From contig NZ_FOPV01000010.1 in the NCBI RefSeq assembly GCF_900113575.1, positions 1 through 64,000 on the forward strand: a stretch of 64,000 nt of DNA, given 5' to 3'. This DNA comes from Nitrosospira sp. Nsp14 (GTDB lineage Bacteria; Pseudomonadota; Gammaproteobacteria; Burkholderiales; Nitrosomonadaceae). The notes below the pieces were generated by a model. That model was given only the letters and a program-made list of their open reading frames with translations, was not told the origin of the DNA and did not search any database. Position numbers and translations under genes: made by a program. Below, one piece after another: positions 28,853 to 31,765 of the stretch (the first letter of the stretch is position 1; every line of letters starts with the position of its first letter).

Positions 28853-31765
28853 ATGAAAAGCAGCGAGATACGGAAAAAATTTCTCGAATTTTTCGAGTCG
28901 CACGGCCATACGGTCGTGGCGTCGAGCCCGCTCGTGCCTGGCAACGATCCCACGCTGCTGTTCACCAATGCCGGTATGGTGCAGTTCAAGGATGTATTTC
29001 TCGGCCAGGACAAGCGGCCATATCTACGGGCGGCTAGCTCACAGCGCTGCGTGCGGGCCGGTGGCAAGCACAACGACTTGGAGAATGTAGGCTACACGGC
29101 GCGCCACCATACCTTCTTCGAAATGCTGGGCAATTTCAGCTTCGGCGATTACTTCAAGGCCCATGCCATCAAGTTCGCGTGGGAGTTTTTGACCGTGACG
29201 CTTGCCATCCGCCCGGAAAAGCTATGGGTAACCGTATACGCCGAGGATGACGAAGCGGCGGATATCTGGATCCACGAGGTTGGGATCGACCCTGCCCGGC
29301 TGACGCGCATCGCCACCATGGACAACTTCTGGCAAATGGGGGATACCGGGCCGTGCGGTCCGTGTTCCGAGATTTTTTATGATCACGGCGTCGAAATTCC
29401 CGGCGGCCCGCCGGGGACGCCTGACGCGGATGGCGACCGCTATGTCGAAATCTGGAACCTGGTATTCATGCAATACAACCGGGACAGCGCGGGTACGCTG
29501 CACCCGCTGCCCAGGCCATCGGTCGACACAGGCATGGGGCTGGAGCGGATTTCGGCAGTCATGCAACAGGTCCACAGCAATTACGAGATCGATTTGTTTC
29601 AGGATCTGATCAGGGCGGCGGCGCAAGCGACCGGCGCAACCGATTTATCCAGCAACTCACTCAAGGTAATCGCCGACCATATACGCGCCTGTTCCTTCCT
29701 CATCACCGACGGGGTGATTCCCGGCAATGAAGGGCGTGGCTACGTGCTCAGGCGCATCATTCGTCGCGCCATCCGCCACGGCTACAAGCTGGGGCAGAAA
29801 CAGCCGTTCTTTCATCTGCTGGTCGAGGATCTGTCGAAAGCGATGGGCCAGGCCTATCCTGAACTGGTGGATGCCAAGACGCGCGTTGCGGCGGTACTGA
29901 AGCAGGAAGAAGAACGATTCTTTGTCACAATTGATTCCGGGATGCGAATACTCGACTACGCGACTTCCGAAGAAAATTTTGTGTTGCACTGGCTTTCAAG
30001 GAAGACGGGCCTAGTTTTGAAGCATATAGATGTCGTGGGAACGAACTACGCTTTTGACGGTATCTTAATCGGCGATGAGGGAGAGGAAATTCCGGTTGAG
30101 GCTGTTTTAGGGGAAGAAGATAAAGCCTCGTACGAGCGCCTCTACAAATCTATACATGCGTTCAAGAACGACCCGTTTTCATATATGCAGATTTATGTAG
30201 TTTCTGTTGGCGACATTCCCTCTCGATGCATGGCTCTTCTTAAAGGAAGCGACTTTCCCCATAAAGAATTCGTTGTTCATGAAGCAGAGCTGAAGCCCTA
30301 TAGAATTCTGTCAGGTGATGTTGCGTTCAAGCTTCACGATACTTATGGCTTTCCACTTGATCTCACTCAGGATATATGCAGAGAGCATGAAGTAGCTGTT
30401 GACATTGCTGGTTTTGAGGCCGCGATGACAAAGCAAAGGAATCAGGCGAGGCTGACTAGCAAGTTCACCATGCAGGAAGGGATTGCATACAACGGTCCCC
30501 CGACGGAATTCCACGGCTATGAAAGCCTGCGGCACGAAGGGCGGGTTCTCGCGCTCTATCGGGAAGGAAGCCGCGTGGATTTCATCGAGGCGGGCGATGA
30601 AGCGGTCGTTGTGCTGGATCATACGCCGTTCTACGCCGAATCCGGGGGCCAGGTAGGCGACAGTGGGGAATTGCTTGCAGCTACTGGGACTTTTACAGTG
30701 GCGGATACGCAGAAGATTCAGGCCGAGGTATTCGGTCACAAAGGAGTGTTGCGCAGCGGCCGCCTCGTTACCGGCGACACCGTAGTAGCGGAAGTCGATC
30801 GCGTGGCGCGGGCACGCACCGAGCGCAACCATTCTGTCACTCACCTCATGCACAAAGCGCTGCGCCAGGTGTTGGGCACGCATGTTCAGCAAAAAGGGTC
30901 GTTGGTGGATTCCTCCAAGACTCGCTTCGATTTCGCGCACAACCAGCCGGTGACGGATGAGGAGATTCGGGCGGTGGAGCAGCTGGTAAATGCTGAGATC
31001 GTCGCCAATGCGGCGACGGAAGCCCGGCTGCTGCCCATAGAGGAGGCAAAAAAAACCGGTGCGATGATGCTGTTCGGGGAAAAGTATGGTGATGAAGTAC
31101 GCGTGCTGGAAATCGGAACCTCGCGTGAGCTGTGCGGGGGAACACACGTCAAGCGCACCGGTGATATCGGCCTCTTCAAGATCGTAGCCGAATCAGGCGT
31201 GGCCGCAGGCGTGCGCCGGATTGAAGCTGTTACCGGCGAGAGCGCGCTGGCCTATATCCAGGAGCGGGAAGCGCAATTGCAGAACGTGGCCGACGCTGTC
31301 AAGGCTCAGCCGCAGGAGGCGGCCGCTCGTATCATGCAGATACTCGAAAACGTGAAGCAGCTGGAAAGGGAGCTCCGACGCATGAAAACGAAACTAGCCA
31401 GCTCCCAGGGCAGCGATCTGAGCGAACAGGTTTGCGAAGTTAAAGGCGTGAAAGTGCTTGCGGTATGCCTGCAGGATGCGGACTCCTCCGCCTTGCGCGA
31501 TTCCATGGACAACTTCAAAAATAAACTCAAATCCGGAGTTGTCGTGCTGGCCGCAGTTGAAGACGGCAAGGTCAAGCTGATCGCCGGGGTCACCGCCGAT
31601 CTCACGGCGAAGGTGAAGGCGGGCGAGCTGGTCAACTTTGTGGCCCGGCAGGTAGGCGGCAAGGGCGGCGGTCGCCCGGACATGGCTCAGGCCGGCGGAA
31701 CCCAGCCCGACGATCTGCCCATGGCACTTGAAAGTGTAGCAGGCTGGGTTGAGCAACGGCTATAG
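28853..31765 (+). CDS. alaS: Alanyl-tRNA synthetase with an extra internal segment
   Basis: AlaRS charges tRNA-Ala. The start at 28853 ([14 protein letters not shown]) is chosen because family homology begins there. Class II core motifs run to about residue 360; the editing domain has HSVTH (H660, H664) and CGGTH (C761, H765); a C-terminal coiled-coil and C-Ala domain follow. The chain is 970 residues, about 95-100 longer than usual. The excess is one block at about residues 371-485 (29963-30307), between GMRILDYA and [19 protein letters not shown]. It has no stop, no frameshift and no intein signature. Its GC content, by my count over 30001-30300, is about 45 %, against about 60 % just upstream, and the low-GC tract continues to about 30440. 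Flanking catalytic and editing residues are intact, so the enzyme is probably active. Confidence 0.95.

Follow-up and report, generated by a model that had tools for sequence, protein, structure and literature searches.

A predicted nuclease-fold domain in the tRNA-recognition region of alanyl-tRNA synthetase and its exchange between lineages of Nitrosomonadaceae

The essential alanyl-tRNA synthetase (AlaRS) of the ammonia-oxidising bacterium Nitrosospira sp. Nsp14 carries an in-frame insert, a net gain of 108 residues, between the two residues that read the G3:U70 pair of tRNA-Ala. We consider it probable that this insert is a folding accessory domain with a PD-(D/E)XK fold whose catalysis was lost, that it occupies a permissive linker, and that it was spread by homologous recombination. 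Sister species thus differ by a whole predicted domain adjoining a tRNA-Ala identity reader, the domain moves by recombination, and a synthetase appears to have taken a nuclease-like predicted fold into new use, or to retain it as a leftover.

The window, i.e., the whole stretch of DNA that was analysed, comprises 64,000 nucleotides (contig NZ_FOPV01000010.1, positions 1 to 64,000), and its alaS gene (Table 1) was the only AlaRS copy found in the genome by Pfam search. The product is a bacterial AlaRS: TIGR00344, PF01411, tRNA_SAD and DHHA1 all matched, and both G3:U70 readers, N310 and D514, were conserved. The open frame covers 28799-31765 (+), and in the alignment the likeness to other AlaRS started at about Met 28853, which is probably the true start; the first ATG of the frame (28799) is located 18 codons upstream of it. 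Residue numbers of this protein (P0001) are counted from the frame start at 28799. The window genome is labelled G000 and that of Nitrosospira sp. NpAV G014. The gene order around alaS is presumably recA, recX, a small ORF, alaS, trxB and smr, where all names besides alaS were assigned from the sequences. With names assigned in the same way, trxB adjoined alaS in all 17 fetched loci, and 15 of these also had recX and recA; the exceptions were the G502 locus, which starts at a contig end, and the stretch taken from G500, which shows neither recX nor recA.

Table 1. Positions in the window of alaS, its insert and the associated features.
Feature	Position	Strand	Basis
alaS, alanyl-tRNA synthetase	28853..31765	+	TIGR00344 E 1.3e-301; PF01411 in two pieces; DHHA1; tRNA_SAD
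N310, equivalent of E. coli Asn303, G3:U70 reader, upstream of the insert	29726..29728	+	3HXU alignment; PMC10036535
Foreign cassette, insert plus flanks of different ancestry	29921..30457	+	about P0001 residues 375-553; two-breakpoint fit against G022; lower GC to about 30450
Inserted domain (predicted)	29963..30304	+	P0001 residues 389-502; gap between PF01411 pieces; missing from insert-less relatives; AF2, Foldseek, VIA
FDG motif, expected place of the nuclease active-site Asp	30053..30061	+	common to most large inserts of the family
E-A-V at the expected (D/E)xK place, Lys absent	30098..30106	+	placed by the superfamily pattern
D514, equivalent of E. coli Asp400, G3:U70 reader	30338..30340	+	3HXU alignment; PMC10036535

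The PF01411 match was broken into two pieces, with profile positions 1-375 at 28865-29971 and 376-550 at 30290-30802, which left a gap of 29972-30289 inside AlaRS. The distance from EEERF to DTYGFP was 144 residues in the window vs 36 in the insert-less relatives compared. The insert starts with TSEENF and finishes with LKPYR, and is followed by ILSGD. A preliminary description of this DNA had reported a 115-residue in-frame insertion at residues 371-485; the insertion is real, and numbering from Met 28853 reproduces that scheme. Its position was given slightly wrongly, as lying between the aminoacylation domain and the tRNA-binding part. In E. coli AlaRS, N303 and D400 are the two residues that read G3:U70, according to PMC10036535; the chain index of the reference structure 3HXU is one lower than the gene numbering, and the gene numbering agrees with that paper. 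The two readers are separated by 97 residues in E. coli vs 204 in the window, and the last residue of the insert is found 12 residues before D514. Since the insert ends there, between both readers, it lies inside the tRNA-recognition domain, and the best reading is that it occupies a permissive linker of this domain. The split AlaRS of Nanoarchaeum equitans, as described in PMC10036535, is also broken within the tRNA-recognition domain, indicating that the region tolerates interruption. It is different in that it consists of two genes with no extra domain.

An assembly artefact, which the preliminary description had allowed for, was ruled out, since the same insert type was present in three assemblies (G000, G014 and G021, the last on a contig of 3.26 Mb). 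An intein was ruled out by motif, as that description had also stated: the segment neither begins with a Cys/Ser block nor has a His-Asn before its exit. Without splicing motifs, the segment should remain in the AlaRS protein.

Searches of Pfam, NCBIfam, PHROGs, PADLOC and PDB sequences with the insert gave no usable match, and no match to known nucleases was obtained by sequence for the window insert. The best NCBIfam match of the insert stretch was sub-threshold (a methyltransferase, E 0.036) and was rejected as chance, together with PDB matches at E 0.44 (insert alone) and 0.076 (profile) and the single-member matches of other inserts (lowest E 0.0045 in Pfam and 0.0073 in PHROGs). The insert of one relative, G411, matched a PADLOC REase model with an E of 9e-4. 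In 23 Nitrosospira genomes, the window insert was found only in the alaS of three. The phage search yielded nothing past five matches at E ~1, and no relative of the insert was found in viral contigs or plasmids. A contig scan with two peptide patterns, whose reach may have been short (G021 was not recovered), returned one locus, that of Nitrosospira sp. NpAV. The window-type profile matched G000 only in 399 genomes of the order, and G000 plus two weak matches (E 0.003 and 0.008, the latter with in-frame stops) in 369 genomes of the class. A G436 match of A7 (E 6e-4, one in-frame stop) was discarded, as no listed ORF of at least 60 aa there seemed related.

The segment had been described as resembling no known domain. 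This holds for its sequence, but not for its predicted fold. When AF2 was run on the insert and its NpAV relative (two sequences), the best of five models reached a pLDDT of 74.3 and a pTM of 0.68, the others ranging from 58 to 39; in this insert-only model the segment was predicted to have a fold of its own. The predicted order in the best model was helix-strand-strand-strand-helix-strand-helix-strand-helix, and it contained the PD-(D/E)XK core (H7-20 E22-26 E35-41 E47-54 H59-74 E81-87). AF2 on the N-terminal half with the insert, again with two sequences, gave a pLDDT of 36. The top Foldseek match in PDB was EndoMS (E 2.8e-3, prob 1.00), with no match below 1e-3, followed by NucS, RPB5-type RNA-polymerase subunits, IS621 recombinase and others interspersed. 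In BFVD, the best match was a nameless ascovirus protein (E 1.2e-4), with numerous RPB5 subunits and, less often, restriction endonucleases after it. VIA ranked EndoMS first (Z 7.8, 3.5 A over 102), then NucS (7.4), AspBHI (7.2), MspJI (6.7) and YaeQ (6.5), and lower HamA (5.8), SfsA (5.3), BamHI and Cap4 (both 5.2); rows without that fold (e.g., HOPS and CPAF) were present as well, and VIA warns of chance arrangements at Z <8, above the best Z of the insert. Most of the best structural matches are members of the PD-(D/E)XK superfamily, the nearest by fold being EndoMS/NucS, AspBHI/MspJI, YaeQ and the N-terminal domain of RPB5. As no Z reached 8, the fold assignment rests on the agreement among matches together with the order of the core, and the PD-(D/E)XK-like fold of the insert is a supported prediction.

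The insert shares with this superfamily the predicted core of helix, three strands, helix and strand, and its FDG supplies an Asp where the superfamily has one. It differs in that the window type has no catalytic Lys, lies inside a tRNA synthetase, and is too unlike in sequence to be assigned to a family. The active-nuclease motif was not found in the window insert, which has D...E-A-V. Among the 13 large inserts of the family, FDG was exact in 10, read FDR in G504 and FNR in G506, and was missing from G500; none had D...(D/E)xK, G409 having D...QxK and G411 D...SxK. QxK is found in some active PD-(D/E)XK relatives, e.g., the Mrr/MspJI group, so the G409 domain could be active. Judging from the motifs, catalysis of the insert was most likely lost. 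In single hhalign comparisons, the window type matched that of G504/G506 with an E of 5.5e-5 and that of G018 with 5.5e-4. Its match to the g290 types (E 0.023) covered the FDG stretch only, and the g290 types vs G504/G506 (E 0.24) had nothing in common. A common origin of all insert types is plausible, and not proven for g290.

A large insert at this site of AlaRS is rare generally and frequent in part of the Nitrosomonadaceae. Four of 23 Nitrosospira genomes possessed one, G000, G014 and G021 with one type (the latter two 69-74% identical to the window insert) and G018 with another; the remaining 19 were without, so that the segment is not the ordinary loop of all close relatives that the preliminary description had considered. 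The family comprised 125 genomes, of which 121 had an AlaRS match (all save G410, G463, G464 and G503) and 14 were split at the site, 13 of these being large inserts. The large inserts occurred in three of the four genera, including the sister genera g290 (5/8 genomes) and g2 (4/9). In the remaining genus, g3, none was found in the 79 of 85 genomes whose match covers the site. Across the family, the matched pieces of G412, G435, G458, G462 and G471 stopped short of it. In G501 (L076), a short Gly-rich linker with native flanks was observed at the same site (gap 63 vs 36); this genome stands outside the 13 large inserts, yet was scored as an insert in a tree of 43 AlaRS rows. With the insert region removed, insert presence on this tree needed 8 changes, 6 of them forced by starred branches, and insert rows had insert-less sisters on starred branches in G021/G011, G000 with G022 and G015, and G409/G413. 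Presence was somewhat clustered on the host tree, since as few changes were reached in 4 of 500 shuffles. These pairs, namely G021/G011 and G000 with G022 and G015, are natural with/without comparisons in which the effect of an insertion on an essential enzyme could be measured.

In the order, 15 of 399 genomes with an odd best E were re-searched and 12 of them were split, the first piece reaching as far as profile position 375-378. These 12 are a lower bound taken from the best-E column, as the re-search did not extend to other genomes that had at least two matches and a weaker best E (e.g., G026, G035, G633, G659, G702 and G755). The inserts (L087-L098; families f225, f222, f205, f203 and f18) had gaps of 60-137 and lacked FDG in all 12 cases, the lone match of the FDG regex being FNG in G715, within the flanking helix. 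Neither an FDG nor a match of the window-type profile relates the 12 to the window insert. One type in f225 (~90-100 extra residues) was observed in five genomes of one genus, G827 being the most divergent. According to the best-E column, the 298 genomes of the phylum were split only in G000 and G803, both of the same order, and 266 genomes outside the order had no large split (one partial gene, one genome without match).

Most of the insert-bearing genes compared were mosaic. In a segment comparison with five queries, the insert-bearing AlaRS matched their nearest species save around the insert. For example, the G021 protein was 0.98 identical to that of insert-less G011 at residues 20-200 and 0.99 at 701-860, whereas its four best matches at residues 504-560 were other insert-bearing AlaRS (0.81 to 0.70). 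G018 was an exception, as its residues 504-560 were best matched by an insert-less Nitrosospira (0.895). In two-breakpoint fits, the DNA identity of G000 to insert-less G022 was 0.484 inside the cassette vs 0.839 outside (2dlnL 127); the inside/outside values were 0.709/0.942 for G021-G011, 0.594/0.903 for G014-G011, 0.553/0.887 for G502-G505a and 0.660/0.925 for G504-G505a. The fit of G506-G505a (0.444/0.871) extended over merely 15 codons, and that of G018-G003 gave an N-terminal end effect only, with no foreign tract past the G018 insert. All 12 large inserts measured (G500 was outside this set) had a lower GC content than the gene on either side, the margin being small in G411 (0.412 vs 0.436 and 0.453).

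Synonymous divergence differed between insert and gene in three pairs. In G000-G014, pS was 0.352 at residues 389-465 (0.405 over the whole insert) vs 0.640 in the rest, where the lowest window of the same size had 0.447; in G504-G506, it was 0.141 in the insert vs 0.384 in the rest (lowest window 0.284). These two insert values lie below all windows of the rest, and the inserts are younger than the split of the host genes. In G014-G021, pS was 0.733 in the insert vs 0.359 in the rest (highest window of the same size 0.520), and the inserts are accordingly older than the host-gene split. Taken together, the inserts of two pairs are synonymously more alike and those of one close pair less alike than the rest of their genes, from which it follows that cassettes were exchanged. 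For G414-G415 and G415-G408, the insert pS was no different from the rest, with a bootstrap interval that includes zero. The affinity switched within the cassette near residue 470-480: by site patterns, G000 sided with G014 at 375-464, whereas at most of 480-569 it sided with G021, and G014 and G021 agreed at 630-659. A tree of residues 560-988 supported G014 and G021 as a group (p-AU 0.02 and 0.045 for the two alternatives), and tree tests of the insert alone rejected no grouping, the host topology included (p-AU 0.124 with residues 389-480 and 0.265 with 389-502). As read from divergence and breakpoints, these comparisons demonstrated that inserts were exchanged between Nitrosomonadaceae lineages more than once, and the conserved neighbours place this exchange at the native alaS locus. 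The preliminary description had suggested a new accessory domain or a mobile element. Both parts found support, in the predicted fold and in the moving cassette, although mobility here means that the insert and its flanks are swapped together at a single site.

The insert resembles inteins and homing elements in being in frame, patchy, in an essential gene and provided with foreign flanks; it differs in that splicing motifs and, in the window type, an intact nuclease site are absent. It could thus be a relic like a homing endonuclease, where a PD-(D/E)XK nuclease cut insert-less alaS, flanks were co-converted, splicing was dispensable as the linker tolerates the segment, and the nuclease has now decayed. 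The nuclease-like predicted fold, the patchy presence at a single site of an essential gene, the foreign flanks on both sides and the D...QxK and D...SxK of G409 and G411 speak for such a relic. However, the types exchanged recently (G000-G014, G504-G506) do not have an intact active site, so these exchanges do not need cutting; the searches described above recovered no free-standing relative, and ordinary recombination leaves the same tracts. We regard a homing origin as improbable. Because the active-site motif was lost in the types exchanged most recently, we infer that their flanks served as the substrate of ordinary homologous recombination in this recent spread. On the preferred reading, a nuclease-fold domain would sit in the AlaRS linker beside the Asp reading G3:U70 without cutting, and the flanks would carry it between lineages by homologous recombination at alaS.

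For the five pairs not near saturation, the dN/dS (NG86) of the insert was 0.25 in G000-G014, 0.27 in G408-G414, 0.25 in G408-G415, 0.37 in G504-G506 and 0.53 in G414-G415, vs 0.04-0.08 at residues 20-370 and 0.06-0.22 at residues 561-988 of the same pairs. The insert is under relaxed constraint, not positive selection. A neutral loop expansion, in which a permissive linker gathers unrelated sequence with no benefit, would be in line with the insert evolving faster than the remainder of the gene. It would also agree with the finding that, in five other families of the order, at least 12 genomes have unrelated inserts of different length at this site. It is nevertheless unlikely to account for the window insert: dN/dS is below 1, a fold is predicted for the window type, exchange of inserts occurred repeatedly, and the best-E column showed no large split among the 266 genomes outside the order.

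A contribution to binding or positioning tRNA-Ala, or another tuning of aminoacylation, might be expected of a domain that ends so close to the Asp reader, and nuclease folds often bind nucleic acid. The window insert is acidic, however (12 K/R, 19 D/E), though some g290 types are not (G408: 18 K/R, 13 D/E). The tRNA-Ala(TGC), with G3:U70, was identical in G000, G014 and G021, which bear the insert, and in insert-less G011 and G022; the search pattern, which covers the TGC isoacceptor only, recovered the tRNA in 6 of 8 genomes, G018 and G502 being the two without a match. Moreover, sister species live without the domain. A role with the tRNA is thus quite unlikely, somewhat more so than either the homing relic or the neutral loop. 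Under the preferred explanation of a nuclease-fold accessory domain, we infer a role in partner contact or shielding: the domain would be kept because it touches a partner protein or shields this face of the enzyme, rather than for the cutting of nucleic acid. A more speculative possibility, to which we give little weight, is that the tRNA-recognition region of AlaRS is an exchangeable module in Nitrosomonadaceae, and that species swap nuclease-fold cassettes because these alter its encounter with an outside agent, such as an AlaRS-directed antibiotic, a toxin or a phage protein, or with a cellular partner. If so, a housekeeping enzyme would behave like a variable defence or antigen locus.

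Inserted domains have been described in other aminoacyl-tRNA synthetases, such as the insertion of ProRS (PMC387263) and the insertion peptide of TyrRS (PMC10036535), which are likewise in-frame, lineage-variable segments of the core. They are different from the AlaRS insert in enzyme, site and predicted fold, and the latter may be present in one species and absent from its sister, and moves as a cassette. Searches of the open-licence literature on AlaRS insertions, nuclease-fold insertions, splice-free homing and synthetase recombination, PMC6451123 and PMC12143591 included, gave no report of such a case.

Two further observations concern the genomes compared. G505 had two recA-recX-alaS-trxB loci (L081 and L082), one G502/G504-like and the other G023/G507-like, and is probably a mixed assembly. 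In the G502 AlaRS (L077), a second foreign-looking block was observed towards the C-terminus, at ORF codons ~796-870, where the identity to G505a was 0.36-0.67 vs ~0.9 around it, and this block may go with the insert cassette.
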